Source: a virus
IMG/VR virus record: IMGVR_UViG_3300047369_000361
Span: 1-22,291 of that record
Direction: 5' to 3' (one strand)
DNA: 22,291 nucleotides
Position 1 is the stretch's first letter; each line of letters starts with the position of its first letter. A program made the position numbers and the translations under genes. The notes under the pieces are model-generated. The model was not told the origin of the DNA, made no database searches, and was given only the letters and a program-made list of their open reading frames with translations. Of the stretch, positions 573 to 22,291 are shown piece by piece.

Positions 573-929
573 ATGGATTTTTATATTAAGTATATAGGTG
601 ACCCTAACTATGAGCCAACACAGGTGCAAACCAATGGTGAAATAGAAGAATTGATTCAACAGATCGAGACTATTCTTTTTACAGACAAAAGAGAGGTTTT
701 AGGTGAACCTAATTTTGGATGTAGTTTAGAAGACTTAATATATTCGTTCAATGTAAATGAATTTGAACTACAAACAAGAATAAATGAACAAATAAACATA
801 TATTGTCCACTAGCTACTAAGTACAGTGTTTCAACAGAAGTTAGCTTCTTGAAAGGCACGGTTAGAGACATAGCATATATTGATATTACAGTTGATAGTA
901 AATATTTGGTATCACTTAATATAAGATAA
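573..929 (+). CDS. Baseplate wedge protein, gp25/GpW family
   Basis: This 118-residue protein is close in size to T4 gp25 (132 residues) and P2 GpW. The family forms the inner ring of the contractile-tail baseplate, where it joins the wedge to the sheath start. The hallmark is seen at residues 40-52: a conserved Arg (R40), then E45-P46-N47-F48-G49-C50 and L52. This matches the R..x-P-x-x-G-x-x-L core of the family, which also includes TssE of type VI secretion. A helix (about 23-35) precedes it, and a beta-rich C-terminal half (about 78-118) ends in alternating hydrophobic residues. The ATG at 573 follows an A-rich stretch (ataaataaaaag) with no Shine-Dalgarno sequence. The gene leads directly into the gp6-like gene, the usual gp25/W then gp6/J order. 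The older label 'lysozyme' for this family is not supported by any catalytic motif here. Confidence 0.87.
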   Translation: MDFYIKYIGDPNYEPTQVQTNGEIEELIQQIETILFTDKREVLGEPNFGCSLEDLIYSFNVNEFELQTRINEQINIYCPLATKYSVSTEVSFLKGTVRDIAYIDITVDSKYLVSLNIR

Positions 930-945
930 AAAGTAAACCTTAAAA

Positions 946-2778
946 ATGGCAGAACTAAATTTTTTAAATACAATTAGAGTAAAATCTACACAGATTAAAG
1001 AGGACGCTAGGACTTATATTTCTAGGGTTTATGGTAGGTCAAAAACTCTTTTTACTGAAGCTTCACCCTTTGCACAGATAATGAAAGTGCTTTCTGAAAT
1101 TGGTGAACTTATCATGTTCTATGTTGAAGATGCTACAGTAGAACAAAACATATATACAGCTCAGCAACCTGAATCTATATATGGCTTAGCTAGATTAACA
1201 GGGCATGATGCAACAAGAGGTTTTGCGGCTGTTGGTGAATTAGAATTTAGATGGAAAATAGGTGCAGATTTATCTAAGATTGCTGGTACGGGAATCAACA
1301 TCGATCCACGAGCTGAATTCAAAATAGACTTAAATGGATTAACATATAGTTGTTTAAACTCTAAAGATAGATTTAGACTAGAGAAGGACAATAAATTTGC
1401 TATTAAAACCGCATTTATTCAAGGTAAATTTGAAAAACAAACTGTAACTGGAACCGGAGAAAATCTACAATCTTACAATATTAAAACAGGTGGAATTACA
1501 GACCATTCAAACGTTAGCGTTTCTGTTAATGGTGAAAAATGGACAAAACACGAATCATTATATGATTTATTGGCAGACGAAAAAGGTTATTTATTAAAAA
1601 CAGGTATCGGAGGCGGTATAGACGTTTACTTTGGCAACTCTTCATTTGGAGCTGTTCCAGCTTTAGGTACTATTATTGAAATAGAATATGTTAAACATGA
1701 GGGTTTAACGGGTAATATTGACGATTCTCCAGATTTAACTATAAAATGGGATGCAGGTGGTTTAGATTCTAATGGGACAGAACATGACTTAAACGAATTC
1801 TTAGATGTTACTATTACTTCTGCACCTAAAATGGGTTCAGACGCAGAAAGTACAGCGTTTACAAAAGTTATGGCTCCTTTAGCTAGTAAATCATTTGTAT
1901 TAGCCACACCCGATAATTATGAATATTTCTTATCAAGGTATAACATGTTCTCGTACGTTGATGCATATAACACAACTGATGACCAGTATTTAGACGATGA
2001 CAATGTAATTTATATTTTCGCTGTGCCAGATGCAAAAAAGAAATTAACTGGTAAACAAGATTATTTCTCAATGCCAGAAGAAGAAATGTTTTTAGACCAA
2101 ACAGAATATGATGCTATTCAAAAAGTATTACAAGATAGTGGACAACAAATGGTAACTACCGAGGTTGTATTTGTAAAACCACAGATTAGAAAATATAGCA
2201 TGGACATTAATATTAGATTTTTTGAAGGTTTTACAAAACAAGAAATTTACACTGCGGTTAGAGAAAAAGTGAGCAACTATTTATTAAATGTAACTAGAAG
2301 AGACAAATTACCTAAATCTGATATAGTTTATATTCTAGAAGAAATAGAGGGTATCGATGCCGTTAATGTTAGGTTTATTTCTGAAACTGAAGAAACTGCA
2401 AGAAGATTAGGTTATTATGAGTCTGTCAATGTTTCTGTTGTTCCTCAAGAACCTGTAGTTTTAGAAAATGTACAAAATGGAAAACAAAAATATGTTTTCT
2501 TTAAAAGAGTTGAAGACGTTAAAATAATAGACGTTGACGAAACTACAGAAATTCCAGAAGATATCGTAGGTTTAGATAGATGGGGTGATATTATTATGGA
2601 AAAAGAAGAGGTTGCTGTATTTAGAGGTGGTTGGCAAGATAGAGATGGCGATGAAATTGTTGACGATGTTTTAATTAATGCAGAAGCTGCAGTAAGTATA
2701 AACTTTGAAGCTGAACCTGTGCCTAGAACTATTTACACTAGAGTGCAAGCTGGAAATAGAAGAGCTGTTAGAAAGTAA
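946..2778 (+). CDS. Baseplate wedge protein, gp6 / baseplate J-like
   Basis: The protein has 610 residues; T4 gp6 has 660. gp6-type proteins form dimers that join neighbouring wedges around the baseplate. Residues 1-100 are largely helical and match the wedge-protein N-terminus. Residues 406-480 look like the Baseplate_J core: a beta strand (YSMDINIRFF), a helix (TKQEIYTAVREKVSNYLL), then SDIVYILEEIEGIDAVNV, which corresponds to the family's 'I...I..v.GV..V' ending. The region after about 490 is an acidic C-terminal extension with an Asp-rich loop, D565-R-D-G-D-E-I-V-D-D574, resembling a calcium-binding loop of the thrombospondin type 3 or EF-hand kind. The start at 946 (ATGGCA) follows A-rich DNA. 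The stop overlaps the next ATG by one base (TAATG), suggesting coupled translation. The gene order gp25, gp6, gp7 supports the call. Confidence 0.85.
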   Translation: MAELNFLNTIRVKSTQIKEDARTYISRVYGRSKTLFTEASPFAQIMKVLSEIGELIMFYVEDATVEQNIYTAQQPESIYGLARLTGHDATRGFAAVGELEFRWKIGADLSKIAGTGINIDPRAEFKIDLNGLTYSCLNSKDRFRLEKDNKFAIKTAFIQGKFEKQTVTGTGENLQSYNIKTGGITDHSNVSVSVNGEKWTKHESLYDLLADEKGYLLKTGIGGGIDVYFGNSSFGAVPALGTIIEIEYVKHEGLTGNIDDSPDLTIKWDAGGLDSNGTEHDLNEFLDVTITSAPKMGSDAESTAFTKVMAPLASKSFVLATPDNYEYFLSRYNMFSYVDAYNTTDDQYLDDDNVIYIFAVPDAKKKLTGKQDYFSMPEEEMFLDQTEYDAIQKVLQDSGQQMVTTEVVFVKPQIRKYSMDINIRFFEGFTKQEIYTAVREKVSNYLLNVTRRDKLPKSDIVYILEEIEGIDAVNVRFISETEETARRLGYYESVNVSVVPQEPVVLENVQNGKQKYVFFKRVEDVKIIDVDETTEIPEDIVGLDRWGDIIMEKEEVAVFRGGWQDRDGDEIVDDVLINAEAAVSINFEAEPVPRTIYTRVQAGNRRAVRK

Positions 2779-5846: not shown

Positions 5847-6416
5847 ATGGCAAACATTATTGAAATTTTAGGAACTGATTCAGTTTCAGCGTCTAGACCA
5901 ACTATTAATACTAACTTTGAGTTGCTAAATGATGAACTAGCTTCGGTTATGGCTCTTTTAAATCCAACGACATTGGCTTTATCTGGAGTTTCTAGCGTTA
6001 CTACAACATCGTTAACGGTTTCTAGCGGAACAACCAATCTGTTAAGCGTAGCAAATGCAGGTGGAATTCAAGCACTAACTGACGCTTCATTTTCTAATGC
6101 TATCACACTTGGTGGTACATTAGTTAAAAGTGGAGTTGTAGGTTCTATGGCTATTCCAACTACAGTTACAGCGCCAACAGCTTTAACTGCAATCACTTAT
6201 TTTGTAGAAAGCTCATTTAATTTACCTACAGCCACTGATGGACAAGAAATAACTTTAATCAGTACAAGTGCATCTGAGATAGATGTTCTACCACAGGCTG
6301 GAGCTGCAATTGGAGCAACTTCTATTAAATTAGATGCAGCTAATTCCACTATAACCTTAAGATGTTTTAACGACGTGTGGTATATTATTAGCTCACACGC
6401 TTGTACAATCGCTTAA
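5847..6416 (+). CDS. Short fibre- or spike-like virion protein
   Basis: This encodes 189 residues rich in Ser, Thr, Ala and Val. Residues 1-31 (IIEILGTDSVSAS...INTNFELLNDEL) match a pattern common at the N-termini of phage fibres and baseplate-attached proteins, and a similar segment begins the collagen-like gene at 20392. Residues 38-95 are short alternating hydrophobic and Ser/Thr strands, typical of a trimeric beta-helix shaft. Residues 115-187 (DGQEITLISTSASEIDVLPQ..., then TITLRCFNDVWYIIS) resemble the small beta domains that end many fibre proteins. The start is ATGGCA after aaagaaataaaa, ten bases past the preceding stop. There is one Cys near the end of the chain and one two residues before the C-terminus region (RCF, HACTIA). 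A role as a small fibre or spike attached to the wedge is inferred; no receptor specificity can be read. Confidence 0.6.
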   Translation: MANIIEILGTDSVSASRPTINTNFELLNDELASVMALLNPTTLALSGVSSVTTTSLTVSSGTTNLLSVANAGGIQALTDASFSNAITLGGTLVKSGVVGSMAIPTTVTAPTALTAITYFVESSFNLPTATDGQEITLISTSASEIDVLPQAGAAIGATSIKLDAANSTITLRCFNDVWYIISSHACTIA

Positions 6417-8373: not shown

Positions 8374-11300
8374 ATGAATACAAACAACTCGATTTCAAAT
8401 ACGTTAACTAGACTTCTAGAGATTAATACAAATGCACTTAGAACATTTGAAAGAATTAATGAAGCTGTAACTACTAATGAGAAAAACATTCCATTAGAAA
8501 TTTTGACTGAAGAAGGAGGCACAAAAACAGTGACTGTACCTTCTTTCGGCTACATGCACTCAGAGTTAGAAAGATTAAGTAATAACCTTAAGGCGCTTTC
8601 AGGTCTAGGTCAAGGTAGTACTAAAATTAAATTACCTGACGGAACTTTTCAAAAAGTAATTACTTCTAGCTTAAAAACGCCAGCTGATGATATTACGAAT
8701 GTGGTTAGACCAACTTCATTTGGTACTAAATCTAACTATTTCTTTGAGGATTTCTTAAATCCTTTATTAACAACATCTATTAATGTAGGTGGTCAAATTC
8801 CAAATGAGACCGAAAGAGTTTTAGTTAAAAGAATTATTTTTAATTCTACTAACGAACCAACTGTAGAATATTTTAATAATAACTTTAAGAACAAAGAAAG
8901 TGTAAATTATTTTCAAGCGCTTAGAGATATTGTAAATAATAATTTAACTTACATCATTGACGAAGAGGTAAGAGATATGCCTTATAGAAGTCAACAATTT
9001 GTTGGTAAATTTGATGTCTTAAAAATATCTACAGCAAAAAGAGATGTTTTAAAAGAAGGTGTTACAGTTAAAAGATCGATCAAAAGATTTGCACTAGATA
9101 AACTAACATATAGTGACTCTAAGAAAGAACTTAACGACACAGAATTATTAAAAATTGGAGATGAACTTACGATAAACGGTGGTTCTAAAAACACAAGATA
9201 TAAAATTGTAAAACTAGACGGTTCAACAAATGAGGTTGAATTAGAATTAGTTGAAGGTTATGAATCTATAAAAATAGGGGTAAATCAACTTTCAGTTTAC
9301 AAACCAAATGCTAAAAATTTAAACATTGATATTAATGTTGGGTTTAACGAAAGAATTTTAGTGTTCTTTAAAGCAATTGACCCTGATTCTAAAATACTTG
9401 CAGAAAACTGGTCACCTGGTTTTGGTTTATATACAAACGAATTAACTCTTTTACAAGAAGATGGTGCTTCTATTAGATTAGATGATTATTACAAAGAAGA
9501 AGTGGCTGATTTCGGTCAGTTTATTCAGGCGTTAAAAGAAGATTCTATTCCACCAGCTACAGTTGGTGTAACACCCGATGCACCTACATTAGATACTTCT
9601 AATTTTAAAGTAGTACAAATTAATAGACATGTTAGTGCTAACAACGTTAAAGATAAAATAACTAAATTATCTTCTGATAAAACAGCGGTTGACGAAAACA
9701 TTAAAAAGTTAGACGAAACTATTTCTAAAAAAAGGTCAGAAATTTCAACTAAGAAATATGAGTCTAATGTACAAAGAGATAAGGACAAAAACGAACTAGC
9801 ATCTTTAATTGAAGAGAGAACAAATGAAACTAATTTATATAATAGTGTTGTAAATCAAGTTCAAAGCCTTTCTGCTTCAACCGATGCTTCAAAAGTTAAA
9901 CCTAAATATAGAGTTAGAGGATTTTGGACTGTGCCAACACCAAAAAAAGTGGCTGACACAGCAGACCAAAAAATAGTTAAATTTAAAATTCAATATAGAT
10001 ATCTTTCTACAAGTGGTGAGGCTGCCGATGCAGTTCAATTGCCATTCACTGAAGGTACTAGAGAAAAAACAGCAGTCTTCTCAAACTGGAATGAAAAAAC
10101 AACTAAAGTTAGAGATAGAAAAAGAAATTCTATTACTGGTAAATTTGAGTGGAAAGATAGTAAAGTCGAAGACGGTCAAGAAGTTAATTTTAATCAATTA
10201 GATATTGCTATTAGAGAAGGTGAATTAGTTGAAATTAGAGTTAAATCTATTTCTGAAGCTGGATATCCTTCAAACGCAATAGAATCAGATTGGTCAGAAC
10301 CTATCACTATTGATTTTCCTGAGGCTGAAATCGATACTACTGATTTAGAAAATCTTGTACAACAAAATACTGCTGAATTAGCTAAAGTAAAAATAGCTGA
10401 AGAATTAGCTTCAAAGGGTGTTTACAGTCACATCAACGACTCATTTAGTGCAAATGAAAAATATTGGGCACACTCAGCAACTGGTATTGCGTCTGGATTC
10501 TTATCGCCAGAACAAAAACCTATTTCAGTTTATGACAAGATTGCTCAATTAGAAGCACAAATTGCAGAACTAAAAGGTACAGTTGAGGTTGAAGTTGGTG
10601 AACTTATTGTTAAACTACAAGACGAAGACGGTACAGTTACTGTTATTAAGAAAGACACAACTAATCAAATATTTGCGGGTTATTATGTAAATGAAGTTGC
10701 AGAACTTTCTATTAAAAAAGGTCATATTGTAACTAAGACATATAAATTAATCTTAGAAAATACAAAAGCTACTAAACTAGAATTAATTTCTAGATTAACT
10801 GGTGATAGAACTTCACCAGCACATAGATCGTCAGCTTCTGGTGATACTGTATCTACAAACTTCTTTGGTATACAAAAGAACGACCAAGGCGTTGGTAACA
10901 CAGATAACAAGATTAGCTCAGATTCATATTATACCTCTGAAGGTAGATATGACGTTGCTCCTGTTCAGTATCAAAGTCTTAGCGGAAATCAAATTTCTAG
11001 CTTAGATAACTTGGACGAAGCACCTTATCAAAGTGCACAAAGAAGAGGTCAATTTGTTTACTCTAGATATATGGACGTTGCCAATAGATATCCACTATAT
11101 TGTACTGAACCATTAATTGGTAATGACAATCTAAATTTAGAATCATATGAGTTTAATTTAGATTATGCTAAATTTAATGAAGATAATTTTGAAAGTGGAA
11201 TAGATGGAAGTTCTAATTTATTACAAGTAGACGGAAATGCTACATCAACAAATTTTATTTGGGCAGGAACATTTGGAAGAAACGCAGCAGGTGGTAGTGG

Positions 11301-12147
11301 AAATGCTAATCTCTCTGCAACTGAACTTGAACCTGCATTAATTGATGTCTGTTCAATCAGTAGAATTGGTGCCATTAAATATAACAATGGTATATTCTTA
11401 CATAAAGACCACCCAGATCTAGCTAACTTATATAACGATGTACAAGAAAATGCAAGTAATCCGAGCGCTGTTACAGAAGCCGAGCAAAAAACTAACCTGC
11501 AAGAAACGGTAAACAACGCTATATATACGATGCCTATTTCTGCAACATATGCGACTGGAACTTCATTCTGGTTTACAGGAACATCACTTTATACAAATCC
11601 TTTATTTAACCCTATCGGTTCGAGTTTCTTTACTACAGCAACTACTTCTATTCAAGCTAAAAAACAATTAGGCTATAGAGTACTTGACCATGACGAAATT
11701 CAAAACGGAGAGGTGGAAAGATCGTTTAAAATGTCATTTGATGTTAATGACCAGTTTTTATTAGGTGGTAAATCTGTTGGTGCATTTTTATACCTTTCTC
11801 CTATTAACTTAAATACTCTTTCTGTCGATGGTGATACTAAGCAAAGTAGAAAACAAATAAAAGGTAGAGTTGCTTCACAGGACACATCTAATGGCCTTTC
11901 AGTTGATATCGTTTTCCAATATAGAATGACTGATTATTATGGAAATAATGCAACACAAGATAGAGGTAGAATCGGTGGTCAAGCTAAATTAACTTTCCCT
12001 AACCTAACTTATACTAAGAAAATTGGATTAGACATTTTTGACAAGTACGACGAACAATTCTCATTTGATTTAGAAGTGTTTGCAAAATACAGATCGAAAG
12101 GAAAAAGCTTAAATTCAATTAGAGCTGCAAGATTGATTAGACGTTAA
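8374..12147 (+). CDS. Large virion structural protein with coiled coils and an FN3-like domain
   Basis: The protein has 1257 residues. An N-terminal helical part (1-80) leads into mixed domains. Residues about 426-499 are highly charged and coiled-coil-like (LSSDKTAVDENIKKLDETIS...). Residues 510-649 look like a fibronectin type III domain with a long inserted loop: PKYRVRGFW at its start, VEIRVKSISEAGYPS as the F-strand, and SDWSEPITIDF as the ending. A second helical stretch (657-682) and a coiled coil (718-735, IAQLEAQIAELKG) follow. The C-terminal 150 residues contain GAFLYLSP, FQYRMTDYYG, RIGGQ and LTYTKKIGLDIFD, which look like one conserved terminal domain. No enzyme motif was found. 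It probably forms part of the outer baseplate or a fibre hub. It begins one base after the previous stop and ends before the only sizeable gap in the window. Confidence 0.6.
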   Translation: MNTNNSISNTLTRLLEINTNALRTFERINEAVTTNEKNIPLEILTEEGGTKTVTVPSFGYMHSELERLSNNLKALSGLGQGSTKIKLPDGTFQKVITSSLKTPADDITNVVRPTSFGTKSNYFFEDFLNPLLTTSINVGGQIPNETERVLVKRIIFNSTNEPTVEYFNNNFKNKESVNYFQALRDIVNNNLTYIIDEEVRDMPYRSQQFVGKFDVLKISTAKRDVLKEGVTVKRSIKRFALDKLTYSDSKKELNDTELLKIGDELTINGGSKNTRYKIVKLDGSTNEVELELVEGYESIKIGVNQLSVYKPNAKNLNIDINVGFNERILVFFKAIDPDSKILAENWSPGFGLYTNELTLLQEDGASIRLDDYYKEEVADFGQFIQALKEDSIPPATVGVTPDAPTLDTSNFKVVQINRHVSANNVKDKITKLSSDKTAVDENIKKLDETISKKRSEISTKKYESNVQRDKDKNELASLIEERTNETNLYNSVVNQVQSLSASTDASKVKPKYRVRGFWTVPTPKKVADTADQKIVKFKIQYRYLSTSGEAADAVQLPFTEGTREKTAVFSNWNEKTTKVRDRKRNSITGKFEWKDSKVEDGQEVNFNQLDIAIREGELVEIRVKSISEAGYPSNAIESDWSEPITIDFPEAEIDTTDLENLVQQNTAELAKVKIAEELASKGVYSHINDSFSANEKYWAHSATGIASGFLSPEQKPISVYDKIAQLEAQIAELKGTVEVEVGELIVKLQDEDGTVTVIKKDTTNQIFAGYYVNEVAELSIKKGHIVTKTYKLILENTKATKLELISRLTGDRTSPAHRSSASGDTVSTNFFGIQKNDQGVGNTDNKISSDSYYTSEGRYDVAPVQYQSLSGNQISSLDNLDEAPYQSAQRRGQFVYSRYMDVANRYPLYCTEPLIGNDNLNLESYEFNLDYAKFNEDNFESGIDGSSNLLQVDGNATSTNFIWAGTFGRNAAGGSGNANLSATELEPALIDVCSISRIGAIKYNNGIFLHKDHPDLANLYNDVQENASNPSAVTEAEQKTNLQETVNNAIYTMPISATYATGTSFWFTGTSLYTNPLFNPIGSSFFTTATTSIQAKKQLGYRVLDHDEIQNGEVERSFKMSFDVNDQFLLGGKSVGAFLYLSPINLNTLSVDGDTKQSRKQIKGRVASQDTSNGLSVDIVFQYRMTDYYGNNATQDRGRIGGQAKLTFPNLTYTKKIGLDIFDKYDEQFSFDLEVFAKYRSKGKSLNSIRAARLIRR

Positions 12148-12215: not shown

Positions 12216-15200
12216 ATGGCACAAATTACATTAATTAATACTGGGTATGGCACAGCAAATGCTGCTCTACTTTCAGGTAACGTAGCAACGGTTGTAAAGC
12301 ATTACACTGATTCTGTAGTAGGAGTTGGTACTATTTTGTATAACGACGACGGCACTGGAGGTAATAGTAATGTTCCATTCGATGGTGGGGATTCTTGGTG
12401 GGCTACCAGTGACCTTTTATATGCATATAGAATTGGTGCTGCAGGAGAGGTTTTAGAACTTGAGCAAAATCAACCGCCAACTATAGTTAATTCAATTGCA
12501 ACGGAAACCGTTGAAGTTAACACTTCGTACGATCCCCTTGCTAATGGTATAACTACAACTGACCCAGAAGGTGGCACAGTAGGGGTCACATTTGCTCCAG
12601 CTCTTGATATTACCACAATCGGTACTTACACCCTTACATTTACTGCAACAGATACTGCTGGACAAACAACAGATGCAACACAAACTAGAGTGGTTACCGT
12701 TGAACCTGCACCAGATACTGATGCACCTGTTATTACATTAGTTGCACCAGGCTTAGACTCGGCTAATCCATATATTATATTACAAGGACAATCATATGTT
12801 GAACCTGGATATGCGGCTGTAGATGACGTAGACGGAGATTTAACCAGCAATGTGAATGTTAATAATTTAGTTAATATTAATACACCTGGTAATTATGAGG
12901 TTAAATATAATGTTGATGATGCTGCGGGAAATGCAGCAGTTGAGCAAATAAGATATGTTACTGTAGGTGCTTTAACATGGAATGTTACGTTTCCAAGTGG
13001 CACAGTTAATGAAGGTGGCACTGCTACAGCAACTTTTACTAGTAATACATTAAATACTAATTTAACTTATGAAATTTCAGGCATAGATGCTGCTGATATT
13101 ACTGGACCATTAAGTGGAAATGTCACACTTAGCTCTGGTTCATTTACGTTAAATATTCCTATCGTTGCAGATTCTTCAGTTAGTGAAGGTGACGAAACTC
13201 TTACTATAAAGTTTTTAGAAGATGGCGTAGAAAAAGACAATGCTTCTATTACTATTTCTGATACGAGTGTAGATGGTCCACCAGTGGCTAACAATAATCA
13301 ACAAATTTCTGTTGCATATCAAACTGACACTCCATTTACATTTGACGTTTCGGATAATGGTACAGTAACAATAAACATTACAAGTGGAGCTAGTCTTGGA
13401 AATATAATAAATCAAAGTGGTCTCAGTGCAACTTATCAACCAAACGTCGGTGTTGCAAATCAATCTGATGTGGTTCAATATACAGCAACAGATGATAGTA
13501 ACCAATCTGACACTGGTCAAATTACTTTTAACATAGGCGCTATACCTAACGTTCCACCTGTAATTTCAAACGGATCGAGTTTTGAAAGTGGAATATGTAA
13601 TCAAAGTACGACATATTCTTTTACAGTAGATGCTTCTGACCCTGACAACAACGCAAACAGTGGCCCGAGTACGCTTAGTTATACGTCTACTACGCCAGCC
13701 AACGGTACAGTTTCTATTAATGGCGCATCATATGCGTATACACCAGCATTAAACTTTAGCGGCATAGACACATTTGATGTTATAGTCTCTGATGGTGAAG
13801 ATTCTGTTTCTCAGCTGGTTACAGTTGAAGTCTTAGAATTAGCCTACGTAGCTTTAGAAGGAAGTGCATTTGATGGGTCGACAAACACTGTTTGTGAATT
13901 ACCAAGGTCACAAACATACTATATGAGTTCTCTCTTGGTTTCATCGCTAAATGACATATCGCAAGATATGCAAATTTACAATGACCAAGAACTAACTGAT
14001 TTAGCTACAACAAATACTCAAAATCCATTAATATCTGTTGTAATAAACCCAACTGATAACCCAATCATATTAGGTGTGTCTCCAGCTGGTAGTATTAATA
14101 GTGTTGCACCTTGTGCTGCACCACCAAATCAAAGTTCAAATTCACAATTAATATATGCTTCGGGTAATACACAATACTGTGACGGTTTGGTAGAATCTGT
14201 GGTTGTTTATTATCCTAATGTAGATAATGGAGGCTTAAGCGATAATGCCACTGTAGAAGATTTAGTAAATCTTGCAACAATAGATGCTTCATTTAAATTA
14301 TTTACATCAGATACAGATGTCGATGAATATGTTGCAGGCTTAAATAACGAATTAGTTGGATTAATCCCTGCAGGTATTTATGCAAATTCTATCAATTCAA
14401 TATATGTTAAAACAGGAACTACTAATAATTGGCAATATAATGCTTCTGCTGGAAACTATTTGTTTGAGTGTCCAACTCCAATAAATTATGTAGCAAGGCA
14501 AGTTGATAATACTACACCGTCTACATTATCAGTTAACAACATTGAAACTCCATGGGAATTTTGTAATAGCACTAAAAATCCAGTTGATATTTGGTATAGA
14601 GCAAATCAAGAGGACGTAGATAATGGTCTACCCGCTTTTACATTATTAGAAATAGCTCAACATAATATTGCTATCTATAAATCTGAAGAAGGCGCTAATC
14701 AAGAAGAAATAGATGATTTATACGAAAGTAATATTGTTGGCCACGGTGAAACTGCATATTTAGTTTGGCAAAATGAGGGCGATGGTTCAAATTACCAATG
14801 GTATGGGTTTACAGGTCAAGGCAATTTGTGTTTAGGTCAAGCTGCAACTAATTATGGTGAATGTGTTAACTTAGAGCCTAGTGAAACTATTGGAGATGGA
14901 AAAATGTTTGTTAACATGCCTCCTAATAATTCAATACTAGAGAAAAATGTTTATTATGCATTCTTAGCATGTGAACCTCTTTTAGATGATACTGATTACT
15001 ATTGGCCAGTTTATGTTGTAGATGGTTTACATGAATATGATAATGACACTACTTCACATATTAAAGAGTTTGTAGATGCAATCGCGATTGATGGATCTGG
15101 AAACAAATCTACACCTGAAAATGGTGCGTTTAGATTTTCTTTCGATAGTGGCTCTACTTCTTGCTTACAATTTAAACATAAAATAGTTGCAGAGAATTCT

Positions 15201-18200
15201 ACAGACGCTGTAAATAAATTAATCAATGGCATAGAGCCATATGGCATAGATGGCGAATATAGAGTTTTAGAAGTTAATGGAGTTGACTTGGGATTTTCAA
15301 GCGAAAATACAATTAACACATATAATCCTCTTTTAATAGAAGGCGATCTCGATCAATGTGAAATGTGTGTAGACGGTAATACAACTGGAGAATATAACTT
15401 TCCTATTTTACCAGATTATATTTTAAACTCAAATGGTCCTAATTTTGATATAGAGAAAAACTATAATTTAGACGATGTTTCTAAACCGCTATTAAGAACT
15501 AATCCTAAATTATCTACTAACGTTAAATTAGTTGTGAATTCTAGAGATTCATTATACTTAGAGAGTATCAATGCCGATAGAACACTTTCAGATGTTAGAT
15601 ATAAAAAATTCCCGGTTTCACCAGAAGGTGATTATGCATTTGATGTTGCATCTTTCTTTAAAAAGAATCCAACAACTAATGAAATCATGTACAATACTAA
15701 AAGGTCAGATTCTGATGTTGCTGTTTTAGATTCATATAATAAGCAAATCGAAGAAGATTATCATTACGGTACTACATACAACTATTCAAAATTACACGGA
15801 GAAAATTTAAGAATGTTTGCTCCTATTTGGATAGACAATAATGTGCCAAAGAAATTTGTCATCTTTAGAACAACTAGCCCAAGTGGCTCCATAGATTTTA
15901 AAGACGATGCAAGTGGTAAATTAGGAATGATAAATGAGATTATTAAAAATTCTGAAATAATCAAAACGTTTGATTTAACAAGCAATTCTAATATTGGTAA
16001 ATACATAAGAAATCACGTTCAACAAGAAACATTCCCTAAAAGTCCATTAACATTCTCATTTGAAAAAGGAGAACAGTCTTTCTTCAATGGAATAGATGTT
16101 AAAAAAGGAGGATTTACAAGTAAAGGTGAATTCTTACACAAAGACTTTGTTTTACAAGATAAACCATTAATAGAGGCAAATGATTTAGTTACAGATGGTT
16201 TTAAAAGAAACAATATTGCATGCGCTAATTTAATTAATTTAGAGTTTTTATTCGATGATGATAATGCTAGTGATTATGGTATTAATAGATATTTTGGTTT
16301 ATATGTAGACGATATTGATTCTGGAGATGGTGAAATTAATAGAATTACAAATAATATTGTAAGATTTTCTACATTAAATTCGTACATCGACACTAATAAT
16401 CCTTCATCAGCAATTCCATCTAATAAACAAATGACTCAGACACCTACGTTGGGTTATATTAACATAAACGATACATATTACAAAATAAGTAATAAAAGTT
16501 TTTACGATACTAATTTAAAAGAGGTATTAATAGACAACACAAGTCAAGTCGTTTCTGAAAAAATAGGTATTAAAAAAACAAATAGAGTCGTAGAACTAGA
16601 ATCTAATGAAGATGCTGGGTGTGATTTTATTAAATTAGACATAGTTGAAAATCCGTTTACAAATGATTCTTTTGCAATAGTAGATTCTAGAGAAGAGGCA
16701 TACAAATTTACATTTATTAAATTTGTGCCCAATGAAAATATTACACTTTCAATGACAGATGGTGGAAAATCATATGCAATATCGTTTACAACTCAACCTA
16801 CTTGGGAAGATACTATGAATGAGATTTCGCTTAAAATTGCAAGTGATTATTTAAAAGATGTTTTAGAATTAGGTTTTGAAGAGGGTAAAAAATCATTTTA
16901 TTTAACTGAAAAGAAGGCTAATTTAGGTGAATTAGATATTCAAGTGTCTGGAACTGTAGGTAATATATTAAAAGTCGATCAAATACAATCTAATGTAAAT
17001 CTAGCAAATAACACATTTACCGCAACATATAGTCTAGACCCAGGAAAAATAGATGGTAAAAAATTCTCAAATCAAGGGACTTTAAGCGAGGTTGCAGCCG
17101 CTATTGCTAATGTTATTAACAACTATGAAGAAAATAAATTTGAAGCATGGAGTGTAGGCTCGCAGGTTTATATAAAAAATGACATTCCCGGTTACAAACT
17201 ATTACAACAAACTTTATTAATTAAAAGAAGTAACGTTTCTAATTTTATCTCTTCAGATAATTTAGATGTAGATGGAAAATTATTAGCGTTAAGAAAAAGA
17301 GAGTTATGGACTCAATCTGATAATCTAACTGTTTTAGATATCTGGGTTCCATATTTCTTAAATGGTGGCAATTCTCCTGGAAAATCAGTGTTTGTTACCA
17401 ACGAAACTGTTAGTGAAATACAGGTAGATGATTATATAGAGACCAACTATAATGGTATTTACAATAAGGTGATCGATATTGTAGAAGATATTGAAACACC
17501 TTCTTCTGAATATTCTAAAATTATTTTAGAAGATAGAAATACTATTAGTAATGGAGATGCTATTGTTTTTAATGAACAAAATGTTAAAATAGGATTGTTC
17601 TCTGCATATAACATATATGATATGAATTTTGATTTCTATGATACTTCAAATTCTGAATTAAAAGAATTAAACTTAGAAACCAGAGATAGAATTTTATATG
17701 AACCGTATGAAAATGCTGTTAATTCTATAGATGCTATTACTGGACAACCAACTACAGAATTAGATGCTTCGACTATTATGAATGATGCATTTGGATTAAA
17801 CCCGGATGATTATTTTACAAACTTATCTCCTATATTAGAAGATGAAAAATCTGAAGATGAAATTCCTACTAAAATTAAATCAGAGTTTGATAGATTACAA
17901 GAAAATTATTTAAAAGAATTTGCAATAAATTCTAGAATAGTTCCTAATATTAACAAATGGGTTTTAAAGGATGCGTTAACTGTTAGAGAAAACCCATATT
18001 ATTTAAATGCTAACGAAGCATTTGGTGTAACTAATTTTTCTCCAGATCTAACTGCAGAAGACAGAGATAGAGATAACATGACGCACGAATGGTTTTATTT
18101 AGATAAGATGCCTAAGTATGTTAAATATAATGAATTAAATGATACTTTTAGCTATGTAAACTTTGTTGAAGGGTTTGAATTAACACCTGAACTATTTAAA

Positions 18201-20390
18201 TCTACGCAGTTTGATTATTTTGATAGATTTATGATTTCAGATGGTTTTGAAAAAACTTTGACAAGAGAAGATTACTTAGAACTTTATGGAACAGAAGGTG
18301 TTAGTGAAAGTGATTTACTTAGATTAGAAGGTGAAATCAATACATTCTTTAAAACTGAATTAAGAAAGAAATACTCTATTGTTAATGATGGTAATGACGT
18401 TTCTTTTGCAAACACTATTTTTAAAGGTATAAATGTAGAATTTAAAAAGAGAAAGTCAGATGAAAATACTTCAGATTTTGTAAAAGATTCTGAGTTTAAC
18501 GGATATAAATTTAGTGTTTTGTTAAAACACAATACTGACGTTGAGTTAAATAGTGTAGAATATGAAATTATTCAAAACAAAAAATTTGGTTTTGTTCTCG
18601 TATTTATTAATTTAAATATTAGTGATTTCTGGATAGAAGATAATTTTAATAGAAAACTTTTATATGAATTAAAGCATAAAATAGTATATGATTCTAACCA
18701 ACAAGATTATATTTATGCAAACACATCTTTTGGCGGGGCGTTTGATTTTAATTCAGCGGATTGGAGTGCAAATACTGGACCATATACACTAGATGGTTTA
18801 ACACATGTAAGTGGTACTGTGCCTAATTACGAAACACAAATTGCAGTAAATGACGAAGGTTTATACGGTGATATATTAATAGACTTATATCCTAACACAC
18901 CTGGTAATACTATTTACAAAATGTCTGTTGTTGAAGTAGAAAGCCCAACTCAAATAAAAGTTGCTGGAAAGCCAGTAAACGTAAATGACCCTAACGATAT
19001 ATTAGATGTTGAATTTTTACCAAATAGTTTACAACTTACCGCATCTTATGAATATGTAGACGGTGGTTCAAATATGCACGAGGTGTTATTGAATAAGCTT
19101 TCTATAGGTAATTTTACTGAATTACTGAATAGTGATAGTGAAGAGATTAAATATGTTACAATTGAAGAAGATGGTCAAGTCTTAGAAAATAAATTTGTAT
19201 TAAGGTTTTCAGATGGAAAAGAATTTGCTAAGTTTGCAAATATTAAGATTGAAGAAGATGATGATAAACCAAAATCCTTTAAATTATCTAAAGGTAATAT
19301 TGGATTTAATTTAGTAGAATCAAATGAAGTAGATTACTATCCATTCTTAGTGAGACACAATGGTAATTACACTGTTGATTTAAAACCAGTTGTTACATTT
19401 ACAGACATGTATACTCACTTTAAAACTAATAGAATTCAAAGCACAATTGATTCAAGAGAATTGAATTTAGAAGAGTCTCTTTACAAACATAGTCTTACAG
19501 ATGTAGAGGAACTTAACTTAGCCAAGTTTTACTATAAAAAATATAATAGATGTGGAACCACATTTAATTTAGGATTCATTCAAGATAAAAATCAATATGA
19601 TTCTGATTGGGGAATGATTAAAAATCATTTCTATCATAAAGTAAACGAAATTAATCCATTGGGTGTAACTAAACTTTCTGTATCTACCGAAAAATTACCA
19701 CTTTATCCATTAATAGGTGAAATAGCAATTGATAAAAAAGATGTTAATGTGTTTAGGTCCTCTTGGGATGCTAATTATTATACTAGGTCTTTAAAGGGTA
19801 ATAATTTTGAAAATTTACCTGGAACAATAGATACAAATGAAGAAAGGTCATATATGGCTTCGACAATTATGAAGCCTAAAGATGGTTATACATTAACGTC
19901 GTATACAACTTCTTATGTAAAAACTCAGAAAGAATTAGATGATATTCTAAAAAACAATACTAATAAAACTGAAACGGTTATTTATGAAGGTGAAAGATTT
20001 ATTATTATTGACTTTTACACATTAGACGTTTTAAAAAGAGTTATTAGTGAAGATGGTGTATTAAACGCTATTTCAAAATATGTTACTCCTCAAAACTCAG
20101 CTGGTGATAAGACTACTTTAGATGATGATGCATTACTTTATGTTAAAAATAATTTATTAGGACAATATATTATTGATGCTATACAGTTGTTTATTAAGAA
20201 GAAAAAAGGTAGTAACTCTGAATTAATAAATGCTGAAAGTGTCGATCAACTTACTGTTGGAGGTTTTAACAAAGATAATTCGTTTAGATATAAACAACAC
20301 AAGCAGAAGCCTATGAATTTTAGGTTGATATATAATAAAAGAAGAGGATATTCATATGATATCAAAACTATGTTAAAAATAAAGTCATAA
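12216..20390 (+). CDS. Giant mosaic virion protein: Ig-like array, cysteine-bearing repeats, long structural body
   Basis: This encodes 2724 residues without interruption. Residues 1-83 are a small N-terminal domain. Residues 87-165 and 170-250 are Ig-like (the second ends GNYEVKYNVDDAAGNAA, like DUF5011 or bacterial Ig domains). Residues 255-351 look like a Calx-beta domain (GTVNEGGTATATF ... SEGDETLTIKF). Residues 355-443 and 447-541 look like cadherin/VCBS-type or Big_9-like domains (YTPALNFSGIDTFDVIVSDGED). Residues 545-1055 hold diverged repeats bracketed by cysteines. The body, about 1060-2724, contains LLRTNPKLSTNVKLVV near 1092 and is a long mix of beta strands and acidic helices with only three Cys. 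That segment recalls large virion proteins of other jumbo-type phages, from memory only. The N-terminal half looks like an accessory surface module joined to a conserved structural body. The start ATGGCA is favoured over internal ATGs because it is the first after the gap. Confidence 0.7.
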   Translation: MAQITLINTGYGTANAALLSGNVATVVKHYTDSVVGVGTILYNDDGTGGNSNVPFDGGDSWWATSDLLYAYRIGAAGEVLELEQNQPPTIVNSIATETVEVNTSYDPLANGITTTDPEGGTVGVTFAPALDITTIGTYTLTFTATDTAGQTTDATQTRVVTVEPAPDTDAPVITLVAPGLDSANPYIILQGQSYVEPGYAAVDDVDGDLTSNVNVNNLVNINTPGNYEVKYNVDDAAGNAAVEQIRYVTVGALTWNVTFPSGTVNEGGTATATFTSNTLNTNLTYEISGIDAADITGPLSGNVTLSSGSFTLNIPIVADSSVSEGDETLTIKFLEDGVEKDNASITISDTSVDGPPVANNNQQISVAYQTDTPFTFDVSDNGTVTINITSGASLGNIINQSGLSATYQPNVGVANQSDVVQYTATDDSNQSDTGQITFNIGAIPNVPPVISNGSSFESGICNQSTTYSFTVDASDPDNNANSGPSTLSYTSTTPANGTVSINGASYAYTPALNFSGIDTFDVIVSDGEDSVSQLVTVEVLELAYVALEGSAFDGSTNTVCELPRSQTYYMSSLLVSSLNDISQDMQIYNDQELTDLATTNTQNPLISVVINPTDNPIILGVSPAGSINSVAPCAAPPNQSSNSQLIYASGNTQYCDGLVESVVVYYPNVDNGGLSDNATVEDLVNLATIDASFKLFTSDTDVDEYVAGLNNELVGLIPAGIYANSINSIYVKTGTTNNWQYNASAGNYLFECPTPINYVARQVDNTTPSTLSVNNIETPWEFCNSTKNPVDIWYRANQEDVDNGLPAFTLLEIAQHNIAIYKSEEGANQEEIDDLYESNIVGHGETAYLVWQNEGDGSNYQWYGFTGQGNLCLGQAATNYGECVNLEPSETIGDGKMFVNMPPNNSILEKNVYYAFLACEPLLDDTDYYWPVYVVDGLHEYDNDTTSHIKEFVDAIAIDGSGNKSTPENGAFRFSFDSGSTSCLQFKHKIVAENSTDAVNKLINGIEPYGIDGEYRVLEVNGVDLGFSSENTINTYNPLLIEGDLDQCEMCVDGNTTGEYNFPILPDYILNSNGPNFDIEKNYNLDDVSKPLLRTNPKLSTNVKLVVNSRDSLYLESINADRTLSDVRYKKFPVSPEGDYAFDVASFFKKNPTTNEIMYNTKRSDSDVAVLDSYNKQIEEDYHYGTTYNYSKLHGENLRMFAPIWIDNNVPKKFVIFRTTSPSGSIDFKDDASGKLGMINEIIKNSEIIKTFDLTSNSNIGKYIRNHVQQETFPKSPLTFSFEKGEQSFFNGIDVKKGGFTSKGEFLHKDFVLQDKPLIEANDLVTDGFKRNNIACANLINLEFLFDDDNASDYGINRYFGLYVDDIDSGDGEINRITNNIVRFSTLNSYIDTNNPSSAIPSNKQMTQTPTLGYININDTYYKISNKSFYDTNLKEVLIDNTSQVVSEKIGIKKTNRVVELESNEDAGCDFIKLDIVENPFTNDSFAIVDSREEAYKFTFIKFVPNENITLSMTDGGKSYAISFTTQPTWEDTMNEISLKIASDYLKDVLELGFEEGKKSFYLTEKKANLGELDIQVSGTVGNILKVDQIQSNVNLANNTFTATYSLDPGKIDGKKFSNQGTLSEVAAAIANVINNYEENKFEAWSVGSQVYIKNDIPGYKLLQQTLLIKRSNVSNFISSDNLDVDGKLLALRKRELWTQSDNLTVLDIWVPYFLNGGNSPGKSVFVTNETVSEIQVDDYIETNYNGIYNKVIDIVEDIETPSSEYSKIILEDRNTISNGDAIVFNEQNVKIGLFSAYNIYDMNFDFYDTSNSELKELNLETRDRILYEPYENAVNSIDAITGQPTTELDASTIMNDAFGLNPDDYFTNLSPILEDEKSEDEIPTKIKSEFDRLQENYLKEFAINSRIVPNINKWVLKDALTVRENPYYLNANEAFGVTNFSPDLTAEDRDRDNMTHEWFYLDKMPKYVKYNELNDTFSYVNFVEGFELTPELFKSTQFDYFDRFMISDGFEKTLTREDYLELYGTEGVSESDLLRLEGEINTFFKTELRKKYSIVNDGNDVSFANTIFKGINVEFKKRKSDENTSDFVKDSEFNGYKFSVLLKHNTDVELNSVEYEIIQNKKFGFVLVFINLNISDFWIEDNFNRKLLYELKHKIVYDSNQQDYIYANTSFGGAFDFNSADWSANTGPYTLDGLTHVSGTVPNYETQIAVNDEGLYGDILIDLYPNTPGNTIYKMSVVEVESPTQIKVAGKPVNVNDPNDILDVEFLPNSLQLTASYEYVDGGSNMHEVLLNKLSIGNFTELLNSDSEEIKYVTIEEDGQVLENKFVLRFSDGKEFAKFANIKIEEDDDKPKSFKLSKGNIGFNLVESNEVDYYPFLVRHNGNYTVDLKPVVTFTDMYTHFKTNRIQSTIDSRELNLEESLYKHSLTDVEELNLAKFYYKKYNRCGTTFNLGFIQDKNQYDSDWGMIKNHFYHKVNEINPLGVTKLSVSTEKLPLYPLIGEIAIDKKDVNVFRSSWDANYYTRSLKGNNFENLPGTIDTNEERSYMASTIMKPKDGYTLTSYTTSYVKTQKELDDILKNNTNKTETVIYEGERFIIIDFYTLDVLKRVISEDGVLNAISKYVTPQNSAGDKTTLDDDALLYVKNNLLGQYIIDAIQLFIKKKKGSNSELINAESVDQLTVGGFNKDNSFRYKQHKQKPMNFRLIYNKRRGYSYDIKTMLKIKS
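12474..13838 (+). other. Array of five Ig-like/Calx-beta-type domains (residues 87-541 of the giant protein)
   Basis: Five consecutive beta-sandwich domains of about 80-97 residues are delimited by PP or AP boundaries: QPPTIV (86), DAPVITL (169), LTWNVTF (253), PPVANN (355) and PPVISN (447). They belong to at least three different sequence types, so this is a mosaic rather than a simple tandem duplication. Such domains on phage virions are generally thought to bind surface carbohydrate weakly. That role is general knowledge of the families and is not shown here. Confidence 0.7.
13893..15164 (+). repeat. Cysteine-bracketed diverged repeats (residues 560-983 of the giant protein)
   Basis: Units open with a Cys at 560, 655, 783 and 883, giving spacings of 95, 128 and 100 residues. 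The first three close with a Cys at 633, 752 and 872. Units two and three share an aromatic strand (VVVYYPN / VDIWYRA), a DNG turn, an L..A helix, and a Trp strand (NNWQY / NYQWY) before the closing Cys. The first and fourth units are more diverged. I do not recognise the family. Confidence 0.45.
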
Positions 20391-20391
20391 G

Positions 20392-22291
20392 ATGGCAATT
20401 AATATTCAAGAAATACTACATCCAAGTGATTCAGATTCTATCAAGTTTGAAAAAATTAACTATAACTTCGATCAAATTTTGGCACATGGCGGTGGACCTC
20501 AAGGGCCCAGAGGATTTAAAGGTGCACAAGGTTTACCTGGAGAAACTGGTCAAAAAGGTGAAAAGGGTGATTTAGGACCTCAAGGTCTTAAAGGAGCTGC
20601 AGGCGCAACAGACAGTCCATGGTATTCTATTAATGTAGATATAGACGGCGATAGTTCTACAACTATAGATTCTTACAATATATTAAAACCCAAGGTTTTA
20701 GGTGCAGGATATAGTCCTATTGTTTGGTTGGGGGATGATTCTTTTACAGAAGAATCTACTGAAGGTGATATAACAACTAACGCTAAATTAACTATTTCTA
20801 AAAGCGGTATATTTGATAATTATATTAAACTTTGGCACAATGAATTAAATAACGGTAATGTGGTAGTCACATCTACTGATGATGGTATTTTTTCAGAATT
20901 TGCTATTCAAAATGATTTCGGTAGTCAAAACATTGCGCTTAAACTAAATGTAGATAAAGTTTATTTACAAGCTAATTCATCTACATTTGATATTAGAGGT
21001 AATGCTATTACACTCGAATCATTAAACGATACAAATATTAAATTTAAAACATTAGGTTCTGGAGTTTTAGATGTTGATATAAATTCAGAATTTAAAGGAT
21101 ATGTTTTATTACCTAATGGCACCACTGGTCAAAGACCTTCAAACCCAACTCCAGGTATGATATATTTTAATACACAATTAGATATTACTGAAGTTTATTA
21201 TGCTAACGCTGGTGTTGGAGAATGGAGAGAATTATGTACAACATGTGGAGAATCTGTTCCTAATACTATTGGTTTTGGTTTTGATATAATAGATGCTGAT
21301 ATAGATGGTTCTCCAGTAAACAATACATTAGATATAGAAGATGGTGATATTGATGCAAACGCAGATGGAACTCCGGTTGCTGACGCAGTGACAACTGTAT
21401 ACTTGTTAGACCCATATTATACTCTAACGAGCATAGAAGAAGCCGATGATGGTGGAGCTACTGTTATGGGCTTTGCTCCATTTGACACACCCTATGATGA
21501 TAGTTGGGATAATGATAGTGCAGATGGTTTAAACGACAACACAAATCGAGAAGACGTATTCATTGGTGACGGCGACGTGGGTGGTGGCAATACACCAAAC
21601 CCAACACCTAGCAATAGCCCTTATAGTTATATTGGTGATGTTGATGACACAAGAGGACCAGATGTTGGTTTTGTTCCTAGTGTACCTTCTAACCCATGGA
21701 CCATTAATGCAGCTGGATTAGCGGGAGCTACACCTACATTAGGTGCTACATCTATTTCTAGTGATGCACAACCAGGTTCAGTAGTTAATTTAACTATTGT
21801 AGCTGCAATTAGTACTGGATATGATTTTGGTTCTAGCTTATCCGTTGTTTTAGGAAATGGAACAGATGATAGATTTCAATTAGTAGGTACACCTACGCTG
21901 GCCGTTGATGGAAGTCAATTGACATTTACAGTTAGAGATACAAATACACCTAGCGTCGGAGGTTCTTCAACTATTTCATTCTTTATAGTAACTGAAGCTG
22001 AGGCGACTGGTAGTCTTAATGTTACTAGCGATCCTCCAGCATTAAATTGGAGTAGATTCCAAAACAATCAATCAATATATTATACAGCTACAACTGATGG
22101 CAGTGGAATGACAGGTTCACCAATTATTACTGGTCTACCTAGTTGGCTAACTGTGGCATCCAACACTGGGGTTACAGGGTCAAGTAATACTGGATATGTA
22201 GAGCTTGCCTTTTTATTTTCTCCAACAGATGCAACATCTTCTATGGTAACAATAGAACATGCTGAAGTAGATGGTGAAGAAGATGGGTTCA
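20392..22291 (+). CDS. Collagen-like tail fibre protein, 3' end outside window
   Basis: The frame is open from the ATG at 20392 to the window end (633 full codons). Residues 1-31 carry an N-terminal docking-like motif (INIQEILHPSDSDS ... INYNFDQIL) shared with the gene at 5847. Residues 35-73 are 13 uninterrupted Gly-X-Y triplets, a collagen-like triple helix. About 75-235 is beta-rich. Residues 242-281 match a widespread fibre motif (NGTTGQRPSNPTPGMIYFN, then GEWREL). A CTTC pair (282-285) follows, then an Asp-rich stretch with two DGxPV units (301-329) and a Pro/Asn linker (NTPNPTPSNSP). Two Ig-like regions come next; the last (from about 552) has SWLTVASNTG, resembling the BACON domain. 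The protein is probably a receptor-binding or adhesive fibre on the baseplate. It starts one base after the preceding stop (TAAGATG). The full length and tip are unknown. Confidence 0.72.
   Translation, partial: MAINIQEILHPSDSDSIKFEKINYNFDQILAHGGGPQGPRGFKGAQGLPGETGQKGEKGDLGPQGLKGAAGATDSPWYSINVDIDGDSSTTIDSYNILKPKVLGAGYSPIVWLGDDSFTEESTEGDITTNAKLTISKSGIFDNYIKLWHNELNNGNVVVTSTDDGIFSEFAIQNDFGSQNIALKLNVDKVYLQANSSTFDIRGNAITLESLNDTNIKFKTLGSGVLDVDINSEFKGYVLLPNGTTGQRPSNPTPGMIYFNTQLDITEVYYANAGVGEWRELCTTCGESVPNTIGFGFDIIDADIDGSPVNNTLDIEDGDIDANADGTPVADAVTTVYLLDPYYTLTSIEEADDGGATVMGFAPFDTPYDDSWDNDSADGLNDNTNREDVFIGDGDVGGGNTPNPTPSNSPYSYIGDVDDTRGPDVGFVPSVPSNPWTINAAGLAGATPTLGATSISSDAQPGSVVNLTIVAAISTGYDFGSSLSVVLGNGTDDRFQLVGTPTLAVDGSQLTFTVRDTNTPSVGGSSTISFFIVTEAEATGSLNVTSDPPALNWSRFQNNQSIYYTATTDGSGMTGSPIITGLPSWLTVASNTGVTGSSNTGYVELAFLFSPTDATSSMVTIEHAEVDGEEDGF
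20494..20610 (+). repeat. Collagen-like Gly-X-Y repeat
   Basis: Thirteen perfect Gly-X-Y triplets (residues 35-73) start GPQ-GPR-GFK-GAQ and end GLK-GAA-GAT. Lys/Glu-rich triplets (GQK-GEK-GDL) could form inter-chain salt bridges. Collagen-like shafts of this kind are known in phage fibres and imply a trimer. Confidence 0.9.

Follow-up and report, generated by a model that had tools for sequence, protein, structure and literature searches.

The host-recognition proteins of large Bacteroidota phages are mostly unannotated. The closest described counterparts of the protein considered here are the members of the phrog_31887 / PAU gp265 family (PTm1 ORF-295, pT24 BPT24_145 and MA9V1_015), which have a homologous core, lack an annotated function and, unlike our protein, begin with this conserved body at the start codon and carry no N-terminal domain block. 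Ig-like domains, on the other side, are known from several classes of phage structural proteins, where they are thought to aid adsorption and are often dispensable (PMC9022992). As summarised in that article, citing Fraser et al. 2006, the C-terminal Ig domain of lambda gpV and T4 Hoc resemble our case in that Ig-like domains are swapped as modules on a virion-type protein; in contrast to this summary of the two, our protein has several Ig domains near its N-terminus, bracketed by cysteine modules, within about 2.7 thousand residues. Because Ig-like domains are already known in phage structural proteins, we regard an N-terminal multi-domain cassette between cysteine modules as a variant of a known theme. 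The cassette domains belong to the same Pfam families as those of bacterial surface Ig, Big_9, cadherin and BACON proteins but, unlike in these, they are joined to a phage body, and their coding sequence lies in a cluster of phage structural genes.

Here, we describe a 22,291-base viral fragment of metagenomic origin from IMG/VR (the window), in which a single open frame at positions 12216-20390, with an ATG start, encodes 2724 residues; all features listed below are on this same (+) strand. The protein has a two-part origin, with a front part of about 1055 residues (the N-block, or arm), composed of a fixed root and a variable cassette, and a conserved rear part (the body) that changes more slowly than the arm.

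The preliminary description had placed the gene in a baseplate region, a setting supported by two upstream neighbours, a gp25-like baseplate wedge or sheath initiator protein (573..929; PF04965 at 1.7e-4, below cut-off; phrog_43/261) and a baseplate J or gp6-like wedge protein (946..2778; PF04865 at 3.8e-5, above cut-off; phrog_219 at 8e-27). These are followed by ORFs of 90, 928, 189, 645 and 1257 aa, the last being the immediate upstream neighbour (8374..12147), a conserved protein matching phrog_29329 (4e-163) with counterparts in PAU (gp264) and LR756500 (a 1236-aa protein). Directly after the body, a collagen-type tail fibre gene (20392..22291; PF01391 at 1.6e-4, below cut-off; tail and tail-fibre phrog matches) continues past the contig end. 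The gene order phrog_29329, body and fibre-type gene is common to the window, LR756500 and PAU, and a phrog_8763 tail protein directly follows the body gene in MA9V-1 and PAU; both of these phages resemble the window in the tail-fibre-type gene after the body, and PAU also in its upstream partner. Since a sheath profile had no match in 12 contigs, we infer a contractile tail from the gp25-like and J-like proteins and from the myovirus relatives (MaF61 and MA9V-1). Additionally, the products of 5847-6416 and 20392-22291 have a common N-terminal motif (EIL..DS.S...IN.NF..L), which may be a shared virion docking peptide.

The genomic setting also bears on whether the N-block is, instead of a tail adhesin, a head or neck whisker, that is, a decorating or assembly fibre projecting from the body at the head-tail vertex. 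Portal and DNA end protector genes, and not baseplate genes, are found near the body gene of PTm1 and pT24, the first ORF of the window has a weak match to the head-tail adaptor Ad2, and PTm1 and PTm5 are described as bearing head appendages (PMC7824862). However, as the bodies of PTm1 and pT24 lack the N-block, any appendages of these two phages are not this arm, and the collagen-type fibre gene directly after the body in the window, LR756500, PAU and Lak-A1, together with the gp6/J-like gene upstream in the window, argues for a tail location, so that we consider a whisker distinctly unlikely.

The body (residues 1056-2724 and the stop codon; 15381..20390) was detected in 202 IMG/VR relatives and could be aligned over its full length. 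Its core domain (residues 1091-1371; 15486..16328), recovered by profile, tblastn and Foldseek search of BFVD, is common to PAU gp265, PTm1, pT24, MA9V-1, Lak and huge phages of 462-735 kb. The front part yielded Ig-like Pfam families and cysteine modules, and the sole family match of residues 1056-2724 was phrog_31887, of unannotated function, which aligned in three stretches (E 2.9e-46) and is also matched by the PAU and PTm1 proteins. Neither the body nor its profile matched PDB sequences, and the predicted model of residues 1525-2724 was poor (pLDDT 49). A Foldseek search of the PDB with the model of residues 540-1395 returned nothing at E<=0.001, and hhalign comparison of the protein with T4 baseplate gp6-gp12 and wac gave no match, in a setting of single-sequence profiles in which the positive control, gp6 against J, failed too.

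The front part had first been described as an array of Ig-like, Calx-beta-like and cysteine-bearing repeats. With HMMs built here, nearly all N-blocks follow one grammar, CysS - variable insert - CysS - CysL - CysL - ModD - body. In the window, the first CysS is a cap module (residues 1-98; 12216..12509) that has lost both cysteines and aligns to the second CysS by hhalign (P 95.6%). The insert that follows contains PF16403 and Big_9 domains and weaker Ig-like segments. Ig-like domain 1 (residues 85-165; 12468..12710) overlaps the end of the CysS match, has weak InlK_D3, Big_3_2 and Big_13 matches and matches the PDB sequence 2kpn, a Bacillolysin domain, at residues 97-173 (E 3.4e-5), while Ig-like domain 2 (residues 166-252; 12711..12971) is a PF16403 domain (E 5.8e-22; PDB match BT_2262). 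Two further Ig-like domains are of Big_9 type, one at residues 357-445 (13284..13550), which is one of the two Big_9 stretches of the protein and has homologous segments, and the other at residues 446-546 (13551..13853; Big_9 1.8e-12; tandem-95 profile NF012211 at 9.8e-10, below its cut-off). PF16403 likewise matched in two stretches, and both PF16403 (78 against a cut-off of 27 bits) and PF17963 (48.4 against 23.6 bits) exceeded their curated cut-offs, confirming Ig-like repeats in the front part, where all Ig-type matches, including the weaker ones, are confined to residues ~85-546. The Calx-beta reading of the intervening segment (residues 253-356; 12972..13283) is without Pfam support: the segment looks right by eye (NEGG...SEGDETLTI...SDTS) but has no PF03160 match even at E<=10, and occurs only in the three closest relatives (L002-L004).

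The root of the arm begins with the second CysS (residues 547-643, Cys 560/633; 13854..14144) and continues with CysL module 1 (residues 640-753, Cys 655/752; 14133..14474), both recognised by their own HMM, hhalign and conserved cysteines, and with CysL module 2 (residues 762-886, Cys 783/883; 14499..14873), identified by the same HMM and by hhalign against the first (P 97%). The last module, ModD (residues 903-1054, Cys 983/1051; 14922..15377), is a unique junction domain with its own HMM and conserved cysteines; it is unlike all other modules in hhalign and was found in every N-block scanned with our HMMs except the reduced one of L076. Across 48 aligned N-blocks, Cys 560, 633, 655, 752, 883, 983 and 1051 are invariant and Cys 783 nearly so. 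The cysteine-bearing repeats are thus real as two CysS, two CysL and ModD, but they are distinct from the Ig array, which holds a single cysteine, 11 of the 12 cysteines of the N-block being in residues 547-1055. Similarly, the domain array is part of the same protein as the body, as originally stated, but the Ig array sits within the cysteine-module arm and is not joined directly to the body.

The insert varies in content. Among the 48 members, Big_9 was found in 28 and PF16403 in 9, and others carry cadherin-like, BACON or HYR domains; PF16403 matches four stretches of L009, L021, L022 and L039 have no insert and a single CysS, L050 and L074 have an extra CysS, and Ig-like arrays are found elsewhere. 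This variable domain number, the low-complexity linkers of some arms (TPTPTP in L005, TSGTSG in L045) and the reduction to one module in L076 would fit an arm serving as a stalk for length or spacing, or one that sticks to extracellular polysaccharide with low specificity, in place of a specific receptor binder. We regard this as unlikely, as the cysteine root with its invariant cysteines is kept in 48/48 aligned N-blocks, which suggests more than a spacer.

The boundary between the two halves is sharp. With 26 relatives aligned, the mean identity per column is 0.26 before residue 1074 and 0.61 after it, a step matched in strength by 0/500 block shuffles, and conservation is thus not uniform along the protein. 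The change point lies in a junction linker (residues 1056-1095; 15381..15500), and in the AlphaFold prediction for residues 540-1395 (mean pLDDT 72) the pLDDT falls below 50 at residues 1066-1095, giving a low-confidence stretch across the junction where a continuous fold might have been predicted. Composition also differs, with Lys+Arg at 2.2% in the N-block and 10.7% in the body of the window, and family means of 1.41 and 0.15 Cys per 100 aa, respectively; the nearly Cys-free character given to the rear part is borne out by 3 Cys in 1669 aa. The conservation step, the model break and the existence of arm-less relatives strongly support the proposal that the two parts have separate histories.

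Among the best 80 of the 202 relatives, the N-block is in the same frame as the body in at least 69 five-prime-complete ORFs, including the window, with lengths of ~84-96 aa in L076 and 458-1518 aa in all others. Another 11 relatives have the body but no N-block (PTm1, pT24, PAU, MA9V-1, the 462-kb LR756500, L099, L100 and four phages of 635-735 kb); in these, 0-18 residues separate the first Met from the core. LR756500 encodes proteins of 999, 206, 706 and 1236 aa, then a 1530-aa body and a collagen-type protein; it thus has the neighbours of the window and represents the same locus without an arm. An additional ORF at L054:3734-4978, between the 206- and 706-aa genes, begins MIIYKTTNLINNKIYIGQSYK and by eye has the look of a GIY-YIG homing endonuclease. 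Lak-A1 differs in its front part: a 2507-aa frame read in code 15 (L055:11529-19049) has ~811 residues ahead of the same body core, unlike the N-block of the window and without detectable similarity to it by blastp, and this extension is possibly a second, independent addition at the same site. In L102 (LR756504, 636 kb), the extension is C-terminal instead, the body occupying residues up to ~1350 of 2460.

The window being a 22-kb metagenomic fragment, and frames being broken in a few relatives (L057, L066 and L012), the fusion might be ascribed to a chimeric contig or to an annotation joining two genes. This is refuted by at least 69 ORFs complete at the 5' end, most of them independently assembled, that show the same order within one frame, and we hold such an artefact to be vanishingly improbable. 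The frameshifts, at L057:8001-8011 (right at the arm/body junction), L066:6336-6391 and L066:12517-12548, are taken as assembly errors, and the separate body ORFs of L057 and L066 were accordingly rejected as gene splits. In 12 long phage contigs, Big_9 and PF16403 exceeded cut-off only within the arm-bearing gene (the frame being broken in L066), and each contig has a single Cys block, always in that gene. No host or prophage copy was found in the genome contigs scanned. Searches with a portion of the Cys block, as one sequence, against viral contigs, with the L022 N-block against named phages by tblastn and with the L050 N-block against plasmids gave no match either.

In the body-core tree, all 51 rows with an N-block, including the window, fall on one side of one branch, and presence of the N-block requires one change compared with 11.2 in shuffles. 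The arm thus appears to have been gained once, in this clade, at a support of 90/96, which is below the starred level, in a tree where several outgroup branches are long. Arms that are Cys-only or nearly so (the L046/L048, L045, L033, L050 and L022 groups) belong to branches that lie outside the Ig-rich lineages. Because these basal lineages carry Cys-only arms, the Ig cassette is probably later than the Cys arm, although the root and the exact order are inferred, given the long outgroup branches. The arm of L076, sister of L074, is down to one CysS and is, judging from this placement, a secondary reduction. The identity of the N-block is below that of the body in 23/23 close pairs (for example, 49 vs 74%, 80 vs 95% and 57 vs 91%), and its divergence is similar to that of the distal portion of the collagen-type fibre encoded next downstream; the fast divergence could also reflect relaxed constraint.

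Taken as a whole, the protein is probably a virion-anchored conserved body with a swappable host-contact arm, a reading in which its presence in virions, its adhesive role and its precise position are presumed. Judging from gene neighbours and conservation, the C-terminal ~1650 residues would dock in the tail or baseplate region beside the collagen-type fibre, with the N-terminal ~1055 residues forming an arm on the low-confidence, probably flexible linker. The CysS-CysL-CysL-ModD root would act as a fixed adapter, and the outer arm between the two CysS modules as an exchangeable Ig-like cassette, presumably reaching glycans or proteins of the host surface. The arm was probably first gained as Cys modules only, with the Ig cassette later added and then swapped, extended or lost. 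Relatives of the body found by tblastn infect Tenacibaculum, Chryseobacterium, Flavobacterium and Prevotella, and the host of PAU has been reassigned to Sphingobacterium (White and Suttle 2013, cited in PMC10537231); because relatives of the body infect Bacteroidota, a host in this phylum is likely for the window phage as well, and its marine origin is an assumption.

More tentatively, and with some doubt, the CysS, CysL and ModD modules may form a private adapter that serves as docking root for bacterial-type adhesion domains, giving large phages of probably marine Bacteroidota a second host-contact organ besides their fibres. The junction at residue ~1074 and the Cys adapter are aids to annotating related contigs. 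What role Ig-like domains play when phages adsorb is a long-standing question, and the relatives offer a natural series on one conserved body, from no arm through one module and a Cys-only arm to Cys modules with an Ig cassette, so that this role can be tested by comparing them.
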